Shown here: positions 1,998 through 51,323 of the stretch, one piece after another | Numbering within the stretch: position 1 is the first letter of the stretch | How the letters are laid out: each line of letters opens with the position of its first letter | DNA from: a virus | IMG/VR virus record: IMGVR_UViG_3300005529_000047 | Span: 1 to 51,394 of that record | Direction: 5' to 3' (one strand) | Length of the DNA stretch: 51,394 nt | Position numbers and translations under genes: made by a program | Notes under the pieces: generated by a model | What the model saw: the letters and a program-made list of their open reading frames with translations, nothing else | Databases searched by the model: none | What the model was told of the DNA's origin: nothing

Positions 1998-3839
1998 ATG
2001 GCCGTCAAGGAAATCCCCGCCGAGTCCGCGCGGAATGTCGCCCTTATGGCCGATACCGCGGCCAACATCGACCTGCCCCTCGCCCAGATTGTCCCGGGCA
2101 AGAATCCCCGCCAGACCTTCGACCAGGAAGCGCTGGAGCAGCTCGCCGAGTCCATCCGTCGCCTTGGCGTCCTCGAGCCGCTCCTCGTCCGCCCGATCCA
2201 CAAGGGCGGCGAGTCACCCCGCTTCGAGCTCCTCGCCGGCGAGCGCCGATGGCGCGCGGCGCAACTCGCCGGCCTGCGCACCGTCCCGACCCGCGTGCTA
2301 CCGGGCATCGACGACGAGCAGGCCGCCGAAATCGCGCTCGTCGAGAACCTCCAGCGCGTCGACCTGAACCCCATGGAGGAGGCCGAGGGCTACCGCCAGC
2401 TCGCCGACCTCGGCTGGAAGCAGGCGCAGATCGCCGAGGCTGTGAAGCGCTCCCAGCCGGCGGTCGCCAACACGATGCGGCTCCTGAAGCTCCCCGAAGA
2501 CGTGCAGCAGCTCGTCCGCGATCGCGCGCTCAGCGCCAGCCACGGCGTCGCCTTGCTCCGCCTGGAGCCCTTCCCCGACGTGGCTCGGGCGACCGCGAAG
2601 CTCGCCATCGACAAGGGCCTCTCGGCCCACGAGGTCGAGAAGGTCTTCGACCGTCAGACCTGGCCGCTGGAGCAGCTTGGCGTCATCGCCAGCGTTGGCT
2701 ACTCGCTCATAGAGACCTGTCAGAAGTGCCCCTTCGAGGCGTTCCGCTCGTCGTCTTTCGGCAGCGGCATCTGCCTGCGGCCGGAGCACCATCGGGAGCT
2801 GGTCCAGCAGCAGAGCAGCAACGCCGCTAAGCGGGTCGAGGCCGCGGTCGCCGAGGCAACCGAGAAAGACGGGACGGCGCCGCGCCTGCTCTCGGACCTC
2901 CGATACGACGAGTACGTGCGCCTTGACGACAACGTCCCCGGCTGCGCCGCGTCCTGCGCATGCCGGGCCACCGCCATCGATGGCGCAGGCCGCGCGGTCC
3001 AGATCTGCGTGAAGCCCGGCCACCGACGCTCCCTGCAGGCGCGCGAGACGGGTCGTCAGAACAAGTGGCGCGCGGGCCAGCGGGACGAGGCGATCGCCGT
3101 CGCCATCGAGCGCGTCGACCGTCACAGCCAGCCGAACCAGAAGGATCTGGTCCTGATGCTCGCGGCTATCGTTCGCGGCGCCGACTACAACGACCACATG
3201 GCCGACCATGTGAAGGCCGCGGCCGCGCGCCAGAGCGTGACCGTCGACCTCTCCGCGTATGCGAGCACGGCGAACAAGGCCGAGCAGCTCGAAGCGCTGG
3301 AGCAGCTCGGCGTCGGCACCCTCACGCAGCTCATCCTCGAGGCGATTCTCCGCCGCGACATCACCCGCCGCTACGATCAGTACCAGTGGACCGCCGCAGC
3401 CGACGCCGTCTGGTGGCTCGGGCGCGAGCTTCCCAGGGACGGGGGAAAGCCTGAGCCTGCTGGAACAGCCCTCGTCGAGGACCTCAGCGAAGACGACGAG
3501 GCCTCGCGCGCCCTCACCCGCCAGGTCGACCGCGTCGAAGGGCGCGCCTGCTACCTCTGCGACTGCCTCGATGACCCCAACGGCGACGGCGAGTACATCG
3601 GCGAGTGCATCAACGAGGGCATCTGCTGCGAGGAGGAGGGCTGCCGCGAGAAGGGCGTCGCGTTCGTCACCGAGAAGGGCGGTGTGTGCCACGGATGCGC
3701 CGAGAACCAGGAGATCTGCAGGCGGTGCGGCTGCACCAACGACGACGGCTGCGAGGTCACCGACGAGATCATGTGCGAATGGGCCGAGCCCGGCCTGTGC
3801 ACCGTCTGCGCCGAGCGGGGCGGCGAGGTGGCGTCATGA
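1998..3839 (+). CDS. Large ParB-like protein with cysteine-rich zinc regions, 613 aa
   Basis: ATG 1998 opens a protein whose first 170 residues are a clear ParB/Spo0J core: NPR at 36-38, the GERRWRAAQ box at 81-89, an ENLQR/LNPMEEAEGY motif and a helix-turn-helix (WKQAQIAEAVKRSQPAVANT). ParB cores bind parS and CTP. Beyond it there are two Cys clusters in the middle (TCQKCPFEAF; CAASCACRA) and a dense Cys-rich C-terminus (from about residue 515, with roughly 20 Cys) likely to bind several zinc ions. No ParA ATPase lies nearby, so classical partition is not complete here. It may instead act in replication, DNA recognition or transcription. Stop overlaps the next start (ATGA). Confidence 0.8.
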   Translation: MAVKEIPAESARNVALMADTAANIDLPLAQIVPGKNPRQTFDQEALEQLAESIRRLGVLEPLLVRPIHKGGESPRFELLAGERRWRAAQLAGLRTVPTRVLPGIDDEQAAEIALVENLQRVDLNPMEEAEGYRQLADLGWKQAQIAEAVKRSQPAVANTMRLLKLPEDVQQLVRDRALSASHGVALLRLEPFPDVARATAKLAIDKGLSAHEVEKVFDRQTWPLEQLGVIASVGYSLIETCQKCPFEAFRSSSFGSGICLRPEHHRELVQQQSSNAAKRVEAAVAEATEKDGTAPRLLSDLRYDEYVRLDDNVPGCAASCACRATAIDGAGRAVQICVKPGHRRSLQARETGRQNKWRAGQRDEAIAVAIERVDRHSQPNQKDLVLMLAAIVRGADYNDHMADHVKAAAARQSVTVDLSAYASTANKAEQLEALEQLGVGTLTQLILEAILRRDITRRYDQYQWTAAADAVWWLGRELPRDGGKPEPAGTALVEDLSEDDEASRALTRQVDRVEGRACYLCDCLDDPNGDGEYIGECINEGICCEEEGCREKGVAFVTEKGGVCHGCAENQEICRRCGCTNDDGCEVTDEIMCEWAEPGLCTVCAERGGEVAS

Positions 3840-4517: not shown

Positions 4518-5041
4518 CGGAGAACCGTGACGCCGACCTGGACGCGCTGACCCAGGTGAAGCAGGGGTCTGGCGCCCTCTGGCAGATGGCGGAGAACCTT
4601 TACGCGAAGAGGTGTCCACGGATGGTTGAGCAGCCGGGATGGGACAGTGCGAAGTCGGAAGGGCTCTGGGGTGGGGACGAGCACATCGCCCCACCGAAGA
4701 ACGGCCAGCCGTGTGACCCCGATACAGAGGACTGCCGACTCGATCCGGGCGTGTACGAGCTGGTGTGGGGGCTCTATGAGGCGGGGATCGAGACCGGCTG
4801 GTCCTGCCAGGGCGGGGGCGAGCCTCACGCCTATCTGACGCGATTGATCGCGCTCGGGGTCAATGACGAGGACGCTGGCCCTCGCGCACTCGAAGTGGCT
4901 CAGCGGCTCAAGATGCCAGTGCTCTGGTTACATCGGGTGAAATGGGTTGGGCCCGGTCACCCGGACTTCTGGTGGGAACTGCACTTTGATCGCTGGACAA
5001 ACTGGACTCGGGGGGAACATGGAGGACCCACGGATGGCTGA
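4514..5041 (+). CDS. Hypothetical protein, 175 aa
   Basis: ATG 4514 overlaps the stop of the barrel gene (ATGA). The product is soluble and acidic, rich in Trp and Gly, with CDPDTEDCRLDPG and WSCQGGGEPHAY segments. The latter resembles small phage proteins that sense or bind a nucleotide or metal, but I cannot name a family. Length and codon usage support a real gene. Confidence 0.6.
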   Translation: MTENRDADLDALTQVKQGSGALWQMAENLYAKRCPRMVEQPGWDSAKSEGLWGGDEHIAPPKNGQPCDPDTEDCRLDPGVYELVWGLYEAGIETGWSCQGGGEPHAYLTRLIALGVNDEDAGPRALEVAQRLKMPVLWLHRVKWVGPGHPDFWWELHFDRWTNWTRGEHGGPTDG

Positions 5042-5345
5042 GCGCGGGAAGCGGCCCTATCTGACGGACGAACAACTCGATGCGCTGGCGTTGCTCGATG
5101 TGACCGACCTGCGCTACGCGAGTATTAGTTGGCGAGCGGTGGTCGATGAGCTAAAGCAGCGCCGGGCCGCCGAGCGCGAGGCTGCGCGCGGGGCCGTGGG
5201 GCTGACCGTGGAGGAGGCGCGGCTGGTGATCGAAGCGCTCGACGACTACGGAATGCCCCCTGGCTATGAGGAGAGCAAGGCATATGCCTTGCTCCAGCGG
5301 CTGCGCGCCGCGCTGGCCGCGCTGGAGCCCGAGGCGTCCCCGTGA
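5019..5345 (+). CDS. Hypothetical helical protein, 108 aa
   Basis: ATG 5019 is preceded by GGGGGAA and overlaps the end of the previous gene by 23 bases; ATG 5034 is an alternative start. The product is strongly helical and charged (DELKQRRAAEREAARG, LLQRLRAALAALEPE), with no recognised domain. It is the last gene of the early + block before a 337-base gene-free stretch. Confidence 0.55.
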   Translation: MEDPRMAERGKRPYLTDEQLDALALLDVTDLRYASISWRAVVDELKQRRAAEREAARGAVGLTVEEARLVIEALDDYGMPPGYEESKAYALLQRLRAALAALEPEASP

Positions 5346-5380: not shown

Positions 5381-5558
5381 TTTAGAGCTGGGCGACTGCT
5401 CGATGGTCGCCGCGCTCGTGGTAGTACCCCAGCCACCAGCTCGATTGGCGCGTCTCAGACAACTGGCGGGGAAACCCCTCGGCGGGAATCTCTGCCTTGG
5501 CGGCCTGATTGTTACGACGCGCCGTGACGACCGTTACTAGACGACTATCAGGAATCCG

Positions 5559-5669
5559 TGATACTATGGCCCTACTACTGAGGCCGTAGCCTCTTTCATA
5601 GCGCAACTAACGCGGCACCTGACGCCGCCCCCCGAGGACTTCGGCCCTCGGTGAGGGGCGGCGTTTTTT
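5559..5669 (+). promoter_or_regulatory. Leader cassette 1: extended -10, GCCGTA core, terminator-like hairpin
   Basis: TGA plus TACTAT (5559-5567) forms an extended -10. Predicted transcription starts near 5575. GAGGC-CGTA-GCCTC (5582-5595 region) carries the GCCGTA core of the decamer found in the other cassettes, here inside a small stem. Then ACGCCGCCCC (5622-5631) pairs with GGGGCGGCGT (5655-5664), with an inner CCGAGG/CCTCGG stem, followed by T6. The gene at 5683 starts right after it. This is the most divergent member of the family. Confidence 0.6.
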
Positions 5670-5682
5670 CATTGGGGGAAAG

Positions 5683-5916
5683 TTGGCGGTCGCCCTTGCG
5701 GAACTGGGCATGGAAGATGAGTCAGCCCGACGCACCCGAGCGGCACGGTGCCCTGTTTGTGGCCAAGTGCTGGGCGTGATTTACGGTGACATCCTTGTCA
5801 TCCAGCGCGGCGGGATTCCCAATCGCACCGGGCTGAACGATAAGATCGCCGTTCCCTGCATCACCCGCACCTGCTACGGCATCTGGCACCCCGAGCCGAG
5901 CGATCTGGCGTGCTGA
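5683..5916 (+). CDS. Zinc-ribbon protein, 77 aa
   Basis: The frame begins at TTG 5683 just behind GGGGGAAAG and leader cassette 1; the spacing is short, so ATG 5710 is a possible alternative start. A CPVCGQ knuckle at about residues 23-28 and a second Cys pair (CITRTC) near residues 59-64 suggest a zinc ribbon. Its stop overlaps the next gene, whose AYEGH helix is found fused to a ribbon in the gene at 10513, so these two proteins may act together. Confidence 0.55.
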   Translation: MAVALAELGMEDESARRTRAARCPVCGQVLGVIYGDILVIQRGGIPNRTGLNDKIAVPCITRTCYGIWHPEPSDLAC

Positions 5917-6119
5917 AGGACCTAAGCCCCCAGGCGCTGCTCGACGCGGCTATCGTCTCCGCCTACGAGGGCCATCCCTACAGCGAGCCCTACCGCGAGC
6001 TTCGAGACCTGCTCGAAACCCCATTCACGGGCCATCAAAACCCTCTCCCGACGGCGCCCATCAAAAGACGGTCGGGCGCAAACGGGGTTTTGACGGAAAT
6101 GCGTAGCCGTGGCGAGTAA
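5910..6119 (+). CDS. Small AYEGH-motif protein, 69 aa
   Basis: GTG 5910 overlaps the previous stop. The N-terminal half is a helix pair with the signature AIVSAYEGHPYSEPYREL; the same pattern (AIAGAYEGH, then Y..LR..L) occurs at the C-terminus of the protein at 10513-10707. The C-terminal 25 residues are low in structure and overlie an inverted repeat (6036-6092) ahead of the recombinase. Function unknown. Confidence 0.5.
   Translation: MLKDLSPQALLDAAIVSAYEGHPYSEPYRELRDLLETPFTGHQNPLPTAPIKRRSGANGVLTEMRSRGE
6036..6092. repeat. Nested inverted repeat upstream of the serine recombinase (candidate res site)
   Basis: CAAAACCC (6036-6043) with GGGTTTTG (6085-6092) encloses CCCGAC (6047-6052) with GTCGGG (6071-6076). 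The segment also has a near-direct repeat, GCCATCAAAA at 6031 and GCCCATCAAAA at 6057. It lies 17 bases before the recombinase start. Small serine recombinases often act on such sites beside their own gene; assignment as the crossover or regulatory site is inference. Confidence 0.4.
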
Positions 6120-6840
6120 GCGAGCACCCAGCGCGGTAGATGCGGGCAAAGCCGTCGCCTACGTCCGGGTCTCTACCTCCGAGCAGGCGGAGTTCGGCGG
6201 ATCGCTCCCGATGCAGGAAGCCCGCATCCGCGCCTACTGCGAGATGGCCGGCCTGTCGCTTTCGGCGGTCATCAGCGAGGAGGGCGTCTCCGCAGGGAAG
6301 CCGCTCCACGACCGGCCGGGCGGCGCGAAGCTCCTGGCCGCGATCACGCGCGAGCATGTCGGCCACGTCGTGGCGCTCAAGATCGACCGGCTGTTCCGCG
6401 ACGTAGCTGACGCGCTCACCCAGGTCCGAGAGTGGGACCAGCGCGGGATCTCGCTCCACCTGGTGGACTTCGGCGGCGCCGCGCTGAATACCTCCTCGGC
6501 CATGGGTCGGATGATGCTCACGATGCTCGTCGCCTTCGCCGAGTGGGAGCGGAACATCATCGGCGAACGGACGGCCGCGGTCCTCGGCCACAAGAAGGCG
6601 ACGCTCGCGGTGTACGGCACGACGCCCTACGGCTACCAGCGGGTCGGCGACCAGCTCGTCCCCGATCCTCAGGAGCAGGAAGTCGTGCGGCGGATGCGCG
6701 AGCTGCGCGACGAGGGCTGGAGTCTCGGACGGATCGCGCGGGCGATGAACCGCGAGGAGATCCCGACCAAGAAGGGCGGGAAGTGGGCCGCCGAGACGAT
6801 CAGCTACATCCTGCGGAACAAGTTGCATGAGGAGGCATGA
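6109..6840 (+). CDS. Serine recombinase (resolvase/invertase family), 243 aa
   Basis: GTG 6109 opens a resolvase catalytic domain: AYVRVSTSEQ (residues 17-26) with nucleophile Ser22, then a conserved Arg-rich core (KIDRLFRDVADAL) and the long E helix (AMGRMMLTMLVAFAEWERNI). After about residue 170 a helical DNA-binding part follows (YGTTPYGYQRVG, later LGRIARAMNREEIPTKKGGKW), as in the start of the recombinase domain of large serine recombinases, but shorter. It cuts and rejoins DNA through a phosphoserine link. With the tyrosine integrase at 47470, the phage has two site-specific recombinases; this one may resolve multimers or switch DNA. Confidence 0.85.
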   Translation: MASKRAPSAVDAGKAVAYVRVSTSEQAEFGGSLPMQEARIRAYCEMAGLSLSAVISEEGVSAGKPLHDRPGGAKLLAAITREHVGHVVALKIDRLFRDVADALTQVREWDQRGISLHLVDFGGAALNTSSAMGRMMLTMLVAFAEWERNIIGERTAAVLGHKKATLAVYGTTPYGYQRVGDQLVPDPQEQEVVRRMRELRDEGWSLGRIARAMNREEIPTKKGGKWAAETISYILRNKLHEEA

Positions 6841-46240: not shown

Positions 46241-46528
46241 TTACGACGATTCTACCGGCTCGCCGAGCCAGCGCTTCCCCGACATAAGGTCCCGCACGGC
46301 CCACCAGAAGGACCCGTCGTCGAGCTCGACCACCCACGCCTCGCCCGCCACGCCCTGGCGCCCCAGCTCGTCGGCGAGAAGCCAGCGCATTCCGCGCCGC
46401 ACGACGTTTCGACGGTTGCCATCGATCCGGAACCAGACCGGCATGCCGACATCCGTCATGCCGCCGTGCAGCGGGGCGGCATCCCGAAGCGGGCTCGCGA
46501 TCTTCTGGCCCTCGTTGCTGATCCACAT
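46241..46528 (-). CDS. Hypothetical Trp-rich protein, 95 aa
   Basis: The most likely start is ATG 46528; a longer frame to 46780 would overlap the HNH gene and is low in plausible sequence. The protein is Trp- and Gly-rich with strands (MPVWFRIDGNRRNVV; AWVVELDDGSFWWAVRDL), resembling a small beta domain. No good ribosome site is seen. Likely real from composition, but weak. Confidence 0.4.
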   Translation of the reverse strand: MWISNEGQKIASPLRDAAPLHGGMTDVGMPVWFRIDGNRRNVVRRGMRWLLADELGRQGVAGEAWVVELDDGSFWWAVRDLMSGKRWLGEPVESS

Positions 46529-46569
46529 GCCCGGAGAAAAGCATCGGGACTGGGCTTTTGTCTCAGGTG

Positions 46570-46609
46570 ATCCCGAAAGACGGCTCCGTACTGTGGCATC
46601 TTTCGGGAT
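46570..46609. repeat. Inverted repeat at the 3' end of the HNH gene
   Basis: ATCCCGAAAGA (46570-46580) and TCTTTCGGGAT (46599-46609) are perfect 11-bp arms with an 18-base loop, lying between the HNH gene stop and the next - gene. No T-tract follows on either strand. It may be a processing or weak termination signal. Confidence 0.45.
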
Positions 46610-46613
46610 GGGA

Positions 46614-47153
46614 CTAATCAACCCAGGTCCACTCGATCGGAGGCGAGAGGGGTCGTTCATTGTCCATCCACTCATCCGGTGGCAGTTTGTCGCCCTTCGC
46701 GGAATTGCATGGACGGCAGCAGACCACAAGATTCTTGTCGATGTTTCGCCCGCCCTTCGACCAGGGCACGACATGATCAAGCACGACGTCCCCGAGAGCT
46801 ACAACAACCCCGCAATAGCGACAGGCGAGCCCGTCGCGAGCGATGATTCGATCTCGCTGCGTCCCTGGTATAGCGATGCGCGGGGCCGGCATCCGTTCGA
46901 GTGCAGCCCTGGCAGACGCGAGCTCCGCTTCGAGCTCGGCAATCCGACTCAAGAGACCAGCGGTTCGGGACCGAATGGGCCCCGCGCCTGACACGTCGGC
47001 AGCGAGCTCCGCGAGCAGTCGCTCAGCCGTTTCTCGATCGCGAGCCATGACGACGCGCGGTTGCCCTCCGACACGGAGCGTCCCCTCCCACCGTTTCCTA
47101 TCCGGGCGGTAGTAGAGCGATCCGGTTCCTTTCTTTCGCCGCTTCAGTTCCAC
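46614..47153 (-). CDS. HNH endonuclease with an integrase-like N-terminal domain, 179 aa
   Basis: GTG at 47153 is chosen for its GGAGAG ribosome site; a longer frame to 47201 runs into a hairpin. Residues 4-52 (KRRKKGTGSLYYRPDRKRWE, then GTLRVGGQPRVVMARD and an ERLLAELA helix) look like the arm-binding N-terminus of the adjacent integrase (RRPKGSGSIVFQAKENRYRG, later EKRLAHLIADL). A coiled coil follows, then a canonical HNH: ACRYCGVVV, LDHVVPWSKGG, NLVVCCRPCNSAKGD. This combination could place the nuclease at integrase arm sites or be a homing element. Domain calls are firm; the shared origin is inference. Confidence 0.8.
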   Translation of the reverse strand: MELKRRKKGTGSLYYRPDRKRWEGTLRVGGQPRVVMARDRETAERLLAELAADVSGAGPIRSRTAGLLSRIAELEAELASARAALERMPAPRIAIPGTQRDRIIARDGLACRYCGVVVALGDVVLDHVVPWSKGGRNIDKNLVVCCRPCNSAKGDKLPPDEWMDNERPLSPPIEWTWVD

Positions 47154-47186
47154 TGTATCTCTCCACAACCAGGGCGGTATAAGGGA

Positions 47187-47280
47187 CGATACCGGCCCCA
47201 AGGGCCGGTATCGTTATGTGACGGGTATTTGATGGGAAGGCTAAACGGCCTATCATTACCGCTCATCAATCCATTGTTAA
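47187..47280 (-). promoter_or_regulatory. Promoter and leader hairpin of the HNH gene
   Basis: Read on -: TTAACA (47280-47275), 16-base spacer, TAATGA (47258-47253). Downstream, CGATACCGGCCC (47187-47198) and GGGCCGGTATCG (47202-47213) make a perfect 12-bp hairpin with a 3-base loop before the GTG at 47153. The promoter lies right beside the attachment site. Confidence 0.45.
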
Positions 47281-47292
47281 CGGTTTCTGTTG

Positions 47293-47337
47293 TGGTGGGC
47301 CCGGAGGGATTCGAACCCTCAACCAACGGATTAAAAG
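47293..47337 (-). other. Attachment site: 3' half of tRNA-Lys(UUU), probable attP core
   Basis: Read on -, the segment runs from the anticodon loop CTTTTAATC through the variable region, a perfect T-arm (GAGGGTTCGAATCCCTC) and the acceptor strand CGGGCCC to ACCA. The five bases before the loop cannot pair with those after it, and no acceptor or D-arm 5' strand is present, so only the 3' half exists. It stands 132 bases past the integrase stop. Integration at the anticodon loop would restore a full tRNA. Phage genes flank both sides, which fits attP. From 47340 to 47469 there is a hairpin (GCCCAGG with CCTGGGC) and no gene. Confidence 0.75.
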
Positions 47338-47469
47338 AACGCGCCCAGGGGCGGATTGCGCCATCCTGGGCCATCTTTCATGCCTGAATTCTCCCTTGAG
47401 ATAGGCACCAGTAACCATGTCCCCCCTCTTGATACCGGCCCGGTAGTAGTTGCTTGCGCACGCAAATAG

Positions 47470-48666
47470 TCACGACCCGTCCGACTCCCACAGCGCCCGA
47501 TCCATGCGCCGCGCCGTTTCCCGCCGCGCATTCTCGAACTGGTGGCCGTAGGTCTGCGAGACGAGCGCGATCTGGCTGTGACCGAGCTGGTTCTTCACGT
47601 CCTGCAGCGAGGCGCCCTCTGCGATCAGGATCGAAGCACAGCTATGGCGCAGGTCGTGGAACCGAACCTTGGGCAAGCCGTTCATCTCGAGAATCTGTTG
47701 GAGACGGTGGGTCACCCAGGAGCCGTTGATCGGCCTCCCTGATCCGTAGCGACTGTGGGTCGTGAAGACGAGCCCAAACCGATCACTCCAGGCTCCGCCC
47801 GCTTGCTCGCGCTCCTCCGTCTGAACAGCCTGGCGCCGACGAAGCGCGTCGATCACGCCTTGAGGGATCGCCAAGACACGTTGGGAATCGTCGGTCTTCG
47901 GGTCCTTGAGCACATAGGCTCCGTCGACCCGGTCCAGGCCGTGGTTGACGACGAGGACGCCGCGTTCCAGGTCGACGTCGCCATCTCGCGCCTCGGGATC
48001 GTACCAGCGCAGGGCCAGCACCTCGCCGATGCGCAACCCGCAGGCAATGGCGACGGTGAAGATCGCTTCGTGCTGGTCGCCGCGGACTACCCGAAGAAAC
48101 CCACGCGCCTGTTCGGGCGAAAGCGCCGTCGCCCGGTAGCGACGGGTGCGCGGTGGGCGGACCAGGGCTGCCGGATTGTGCGTGATCTTCTCCTCGCGGA
48201 TTGCGTCGTTCAGGGCAGCCCGGAGGATCGCTCGGATCTGGACGATGGTTCGAGGAGCCAACGGCTTCTTATACCGGCCGGTCGTCGTCATGAGGTCATT
48301 GACGAACCGCTGCACATCCGAGATGGAGAGTTGGGTGAGCGCCTTTTTCCCGAGGGATGGGATGATGTAGCGGCGGACGTAGGACTCGTGGGTCCGATAG
48401 GTCTTCGGCTCCCGGTGCGGCTTGATCCGGTCGCGCAGCCATGCGGTCAGGAACGACTCGACGGTATCGGGCCCGCGCTTCCGCGGCTTGATGTCCCGCT
48501 CCAGATCCGCGATCAGATGAGCGAGTCGCTTCTCGCACTCGGCTTCGGTCGCCGCGTAGACCCGGTAATACTCGCCGTTCCGGATGACGGCACCGCGGTA
48601 CCGATTCTCCTTCGCCTGGAACACGATCGAGCCGGAGCCCTTGGGGCGACGAACTCTCTCGTTCAC
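47470..48666 (-). CDS. int: Tyrosine integrase, 398 aa
   Basis: GTG at 48666 gives the expected N-terminus. Residues 5-60 are the arm-binding domain, 65-155 the core-binding SAM-like domain, and 180-390 the catalytic domain with Arg212 (CGLRIGEV), Lys near 257, His337-x-x-Arg340 (HDLRHS), His363 (LGHS) and nucleophile Tyr373 (SQTYGH). A TATAAC at 48677-48672 read on - would start RNA at or next to the GTG, so the mRNA may be leaderless. It inserts the phage at the tRNA-Lys site next to it. Confidence 0.95.
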   Translation of the reverse strand: MNERVRRPKGSGSIVFQAKENRYRGAVIRNGEYYRVYAATEAECEKRLAHLIADLERDIKPRKRGPDTVESFLTAWLRDRIKPHREPKTYRTHESYVRRYIIPSLGKKALTQLSISDVQRFVNDLMTTTGRYKKPLAPRTIVQIRAILRAALNDAIREEKITHNPAALVRPPRTRRYRATALSPEQARGFLRVVRGDQHEAIFTVAIACGLRIGEVLALRWYDPEARDGDVDLERGVLVVNHGLDRVDGAYVLKDPKTDDSQRVLAIPQGVIDALRRRQAVQTEEREQAGGAWSDRFGLVFTTHSRYGSGRPINGSWVTHRLQQILEMNGLPKVRFHDLRHSCASILIAEGASLQDVKNQLGHSQIALVSQTYGHQFENARRETARRMDRALWESDGS

Positions 48667-50822: not shown

Positions 50823-51323
50823 GTGATCGAGTGGCGGGCAGAAGATACGGCGGTAGCCCTCAAGGCGGCCTACCAGCGGGCCCAGGATCGGTGGGTGCGG
50901 ATGCGGCTCCAGGCCCTCTGGCTCCTCCGCTGCGGCTGGCGCATGGACCAGGTGGCGGAGGCCGTGGGCACCGACTACCGCTCGGTCCAACGCTGGGTCG
51001 CCTGGTACCGCCGGGGCGGCCTCGCCGAAGTGCAGCGCCATCGCATGGGCGGCAGGGGGCTGCCGGCCTTCCTCACCGCCGAGCAGCAGGAGGCGGTCGC
51101 GACCGAGGTCGCCAGCGGGCGCTTCCGCACCGCCGGGGAGATTCGCGACTGGATCGCCACCGAGTACGGCGTGGAGTACACCATGGGCGGCGTCTATGGG
51201 CTCTTGGATCGCCTGCGCTGTGGACCGAAAGTCCCCCGCCCCATCCATGTCCAGGCCGACGAAAAGCGACAGACGGCCTGGAAAAAGGGGGATTCCAAAC
51301 CGCGCTCGAAGCGGCTGGCGTAA
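50823..51323 (+). CDS. IS630-type transposase, N-terminal frame (ORFA), 166 aa
   Basis: GTG 50823. Two helix-turn-helix units are visible: WVRMRLQALWLLRCGWRMDQ with VAEAVGTDYRSVQRWVAWYR, then a winged part (TAGEIRDWIATEYGVEYTMG, VYGLLDRLR). This is the DNA-binding half of IS630/Tc1-like transposases. The frame ends at TAA 51321-51323, past an A5G5 run at 51282-51291 where a -1 shift leads into the catalytic half. Confidence 0.8.
   Translation: MIEWRAEDTAVALKAAYQRAQDRWVRMRLQALWLLRCGWRMDQVAEAVGTDYRSVQRWVAWYRRGGLAEVQRHRMGGRGLPAFLTAEQQEAVATEVASGRFRTAGEIRDWIATEYGVEYTMGGVYGLLDRLRCGPKVPRPIHVQADEKRQTAWKKGDSKPRSKRLA

Follow-up and report, generated by a model that had tools for sequence, protein, structure and literature searches.

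A phage HNH nuclease with an N-terminus resembling integrase arm-type domains, encoded beside a probable attachment site

The HNH gene and the probable attachment site

The window is a stretch of 51,394 nucleotides of viral DNA (IMG/VR record IMGVR_UViG_3300005529_000047) from a temperate phage, in which an HNH nuclease gene (hnh) and a tyrosine integrase gene lie on the same strand on either side of a partial tRNA gene. The features of this region are as follows.

46614..47153 (-), HNH nuclease gene: open reading frame of 179 aa with a GTG start at 47153; Pfam HNH_5 and HNH above cut-off
46665..46865 (-), HNH domain, residues 97-163: Pfam, alignment with HNH relatives, VIA-align to EcoKMcrA with Z 7.7
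46893..46979 (-), predicted long helix, residues 59-87: AlphaFold2; possibly a dimerisation coiled coil
46992..47153 (-), N-terminal integrase arm-type DNA-binding domain, residues 1-54: BLASTP, arm HMM and a beta-beta-beta-alpha model
47186..47214 (no strand), perfect 13-bp inverted repeat ACGATACCGGCCC/GGGCCGGTATCGT, ~32 bp before hnh begins: candidate binding site, or else a terminator hairpin lacking a T-run
47296..47346 (-), tRNA-Lys(TTT) gene fragment running from the anticodon loop to CCA (3' half), probably the attP core: Rfam and reading of the sequence
47431..47441 (+), GATACCGGCCC, the third exact copy, lying between the core and the integrase: candidate arm-type site
47470..48666 (-), tyrosine integrase of 398 aa with an arm-type N-terminus: Pfam Phage_integrase (8.1e-20) and SAM_3; phrog_1 (9.9e-65)

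The GTG start of hnh is preceded by a GGAGAG ribosome-binding site a few bases upstream, and because a single metagenome contig carries the fusion, the reading frame rests on one assembly. Pfam HNH_5 (1.5e-11, 44.5 bits vs a cut-off of 27.5) and HNH (3.5e-10, 40.3 bits vs a cut-off of 21.4) match the protein over residues 111-159. Alignment with HNH proteins shows that the zinc cysteines C111, C114, C146 and C149, the D126-H127 pair, N141 and N150 are all kept; judged by this alignment, the nuclease domain is intact in its metal and catalytic residues. The nuclease core is like that of the HNH_5/McrA-like enzymes (Gme HNH, 4h9d; EcoKMcrA, 6ghc) by sequence and by predicted fold, this part of the model resembling McrA-like and Cas9/IscB HNH domains with a best Z of 7.7, a middling value. 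Pfam and PHROG profiles find neither a core-binding nor a catalytic recombinase domain in the protein, so it is not a whole tyrosine integrase; the protein encoded at 47470-48666 carries SAM-like and catalytic domains, as is usual for an integrase. Directly 3' of the hnh stop codon, an inverted repeat read by eye at 46570-46609 (ATCCCGAAAGA/TCTTTCGGGAT) is possibly a terminator or operator. Further downstream on the same strand is a small open reading frame at 46241-46530 (-), beginning about MWISNEGQ (the start is approximate) and having no Pfam match, which could be co-transcribed with hnh.

An earlier sequence-only reading had placed hnh across attP from the integrase, and the tRNA-Lys 3'-half core at 47296-47346, which probably works as attP, does separate the two genes. 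Rfam scores this segment as tRNA at 22.9 bits, below the gathering score of 29, as is expected for a tRNA fragment. Judging by the direction in which the tRNA fragment reads, a phage integrated into the tRNA gene would have the integrase at the far end of the prophage and hnh immediately downstream of the rebuilt tRNA-Lys. Since hnh would point in the same direction as that tRNA gene, it could be expressed from the prophage. A search for the host site in 299 genomes from the phylum to which L009 belongs yielded neither a match to the tRNA core at up to 3 mismatches nor an empty site.

The N-terminal domain

In a BLASTP comparison with the neighbouring integrase, HNH residues 5-54 aligned with integrase residues 6-55 at 34% identity, without gaps and with an E of 2e-5, as the sole significant match. 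Because a comparison between neighbours would bias the result, an arm-domain HMM was built from 15 integrases recovered from other loci, with the window's own integrase left out. The sequence-only reading had described this N-terminus as mirroring the integrase arm-binding domain in motif order and had named a profile alignment as a check that could refute the similarity, which the claim survives: the HNH N-terminus scored 26.4 bits when taken alone and 23.1 bits within the full protein, against a maximum of 10.5 bits among 4,955 scored shuffles. The window's own integrase scored 18.0 bits on the same HMM. Solely integrases, many of them profile members, outscored the HNH protein among 9,732 scored open reading frames, and on the full arm profile the best of 52 HNH proteins from other loci (47 distinct) reached 1.3 bits, compared with 27.0 for the protein described here. 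The shuffles and the background open reading frames reject chance similarity to integrases. As the arm-profile score exceeds both, and other HNH proteins do not score, these profile comparisons indicate that the similarity is real and particular to the HNH protein of this phage. An arm-type N-terminus, found in 0 of the 47 distinct HNH open reading frames examined, also sets it apart from the HNH_5/McrA-like nucleases.

Pfam Arm-DNA-bind_4 does not match the HNH protein, but it fails to match the window's own integrase as well. Database searches with just the N-terminus, a query too short for them, yielded no integrase, and a PDB profile search with the arm alignment returned nothing significant.

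AlphaFold2, run with a shallow alignment, predicts strands at residues 12-16, 21-28 and 31-37 and a helix at 40-54 with a pLDDT of about 93-96; this three-stranded sheet plus helix, the arrangement of an arm-type domain, reproduces the strand-then-helix motif order claimed from the sequence. In the model these elements are followed by the long helix (59-87) and then the HNH domain, with the relative placement of the domains uncertain (pTM 0.48), and the long helix may hold the protein as a dimer. Fold searches with the N-terminal domain gave weak and mixed matches (AP2, dsRBD and others), including the AP2 domain of TEM1 (rmsd 1.7 over 46 residues, Z 5.3) and AtERF1 (Z 5.3). Because the domain matches AP2 and other beta-beta-beta-alpha folds weakly, the structural search backs the fold type without choosing a family. 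Integrase structures were not among the matches listed, which is not evidence of their absence.

Kinship with the neighbouring integrase, candidate sites and the search for other fusions

Pairwise, the HNH N-terminal domain scores higher with integrases from other loci (93 with L286, 81 with L277 of a Thermus phage and 79 with L279) than with its neighbour (73). Over the aligned codons, 65 of 150 nucleotides are identical between hnh and the integrase gene, and the same codon is used for 5 of the 17 identical residues, making a recent duplication of the integrase 5' end unlikely. With DNA identity this low, the domain appears by sequence to be a member of the integrase arm family and no recent copy of the neighbour's. 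The DNA-reading face of its sheet was placed tentatively, by analogy with AtERF1 and not from a solved structure of an arm-type domain on DNA. Of the nine positions predicted to face DNA, seven differ between the HNH protein and the integrase (Y14/V, R16/Q, E23/R, T25/A, R27/I, Q31/E and R33/Y), a count that is approximate because strand 1 is aligned slightly differently with and without the profile; R21 and V35 are common to both. As the module is no copy of the neighbouring integrase's, it may recognise a different DNA site. The sequence-only reading thus stands as to kinship with arm domains, while its suggestion that both proteins read the same arm sites is weak: the higher scores to other integrases, the low nucleotide identity and the seven differing positions argue against it.

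Candidate binding sites are nevertheless present around the core. GATACCGGCCC has three exact copies in the 51 kb, and a 254-bp stretch around the att core contains them all: two, at 47188 and 47202, form the perfect inverted repeat just upstream of hnh, and one lies beyond the core at 47431. With up to 2 mismatches allowed, 29 copies were observed vs 25.7 expected, so that such near matches are no commoner than chance. The inverted pair may equally be a terminator, since it forms a strong hairpin, albeit one that lacks a T-run.

The search for further arm-HNH fusions, which had been proposed along with the same-site idea, came back empty. With tblastn in phages and plasmids, matches were confined to the HNH region and gave no second fusion; no match extended to the N-terminus in 299 genomes from each of the two phyla to which L010 and L009 belong; and five degenerate pattern scans of viral contigs, whose fixed linker ranges assume a narrow spacing, contained no fusion among the matches listed. 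As a second copy was not found, there is no sign of mobility or of a conserved function. The literature searched contained no description of an arm-domain/HNH fusion, an absence that is weak evidence. Rarity of the fusion is supported, not proven, by these searches. Peptide patterns found no close relatives of the integrase in viral contigs. On one viral contig (L007), a small HNH-like gene (4938-5285), in which DE replaces the DH motif, adjoins an arm-type integrase (5539-6618), and the two are not fused.

Possible roles of the fusion protein

AP2 and integrase arm-type domains have a common fold, and HNH nucleases with AP2 modules provide the closest known design. Phages are well known to carry HNH-AP2 homing endonucleases (PMC10448857, PMC2248197), and those of ICP1 (gp59/gp209, PMC10448857) and of Xanthomonas phages (PMC2248197) are likewise free-standing phage genes that join an HNH nuclease to one beta-beta-beta-alpha module. 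The present protein differs in that its module is N-terminal, is arm-type by sequence rather than AP2, and is joined to a nuclease of the HNH_5/HNH type. With tyrosine integrase arm domains (Tn916/lambda-Int-like, and residues 1-66 of the window integrase) it shares the K-G-x-G-S start, a W/Y, three strands plus a helix and a significant profile match, but the arm domain is followed by a helix and an HNH nuclease, not by core-binding and catalytic recombinase domains. The known design of an HNH nuclease with an integrase-type (AP2-like) DNA-binding module is here varied by an arm-type domain in that role.

The account we favour, to which we give about even credence, is that the gene encodes a stand-alone HNH endonuclease of the phage, which recognises DNA through an integrase arm-type domain and serves as a homing-type or interference nuclease. 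The arm-type domain would recognise a short site, helix 59-87 would dimerise the protein so that two arm domains could read a duplex site of ~10 bp through their three-stranded sheets, and the HNH domains would nick or cut near that site, the targets being related or competing DNA. Free-standing phage homing endonucleases usually have their DNA-binding domain and their nuclease at opposite ends of the protein, as here (PMC10448857). The most likely role, and by analogy the most economical one, is homing or interference with related DNA, because other free-standing phage HNH genes act in this way. Control of the phage's own excision appears less likely, as the nuclease would cut its own phage unless cleavage were restrained.

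Four other explanations were weighed against this one. The gene may encode a selfish homing endonuclease of the ordinary kind, whose target is unrelated and which lies near attP by coincidence, as most phage HNH genes are thought to be such elements and nucleases cluster at genetic exchange boundaries (PMC10448857); we consider this unlikely, though the most credible of the alternatives, as neither an insertion-free relative nor a second copy was found and its DNA-binding module is of none of the usual types (AP2, NUMOD, zinc finger). That the N-terminus is instead an AP2 domain, the protein being one of the known HNH-AP2 homing endonucleases and integrase-like through the common fold alone, would suit the weak structural matches to TEM1 and AtERF1, but we rejected AP2 identity and regard this explanation as highly improbable. 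An AP2 profile, made from a small set of five HNH-AP2-type domains (four distinct) of phage and bacterial proteins, gave 5.7 bits, within the shuffle range (maximum 10.9), in clear contrast to the 26.4 bits of the arm profile; the AP2 domains each scored <5 bits on the arm profile, Pfam AP2 does not match the HNH protein, and HNH-AP2 enzymes carry HNH at the N-terminus and AP2 at the C-terminus (PMC10448857), the reverse of the order here.

The other two explanations start from the att site, where integrase genes are often swapped. A relic fusion, in which an earlier integrase gene took up hnh by insertion or recombination and its 5' remnant does nothing special, would fit such swapping and the closer resemblance to integrases other than the present one. 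We think it improbable, as the domain is complete, keeps the family glycines and W22, folds with high predicted confidence and is joined to the HNH domain by an ordered helix, and hnh has its own start codon and ribosome-binding site. Binding to the same arm sites as the integrase, whereby the protein would control excision or cut the attP-like sites of rival phages, gains from the shared domain family and from the three GATACCGGCCC copies flanking the core. It is countered by the closer likeness to other integrases, the differing DNA-facing residues, the danger that a nuclease directed against these attP arms would cut the very phage that encodes it, and the alternative use of the inverted pair as a terminator hairpin; we hold it to be equally improbable. 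Marginally more doubtful still is the broader proposal that a nuclease with an integrase-derived guide domain finds att arm sequences, either those of its own phage for regulation or those of competitors using the same tRNA-Lys, which it would cut or whose integration it would block.

A real integrase-family arm domain joined to an HNH nuclease and encoded at the att site itself is an uncommon combination. If the domain reads att arm sequences, the nuclease would be steered by integration sites, and temperate phages would have a new means of competing or of policing excision. The HNH N-terminal domain and the integrase arm domain are small and easily expressed, and a single 380-bp fragment would allow a direct comparison of their DNA specificities.

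Finally, several other genes of this phage may be recorded. A serine recombinase/invertase-type protein at 6109-6840 (phrog_95, phrog_125) accompanies the tyrosine integrase, a ParB-like protein of 613 aa is encoded at 1998-3839 near the left end, and a transposase-like helix-turn-helix open reading frame at 50823-51323, near the contig end, weakly matches phrog_10624 (unknown function).
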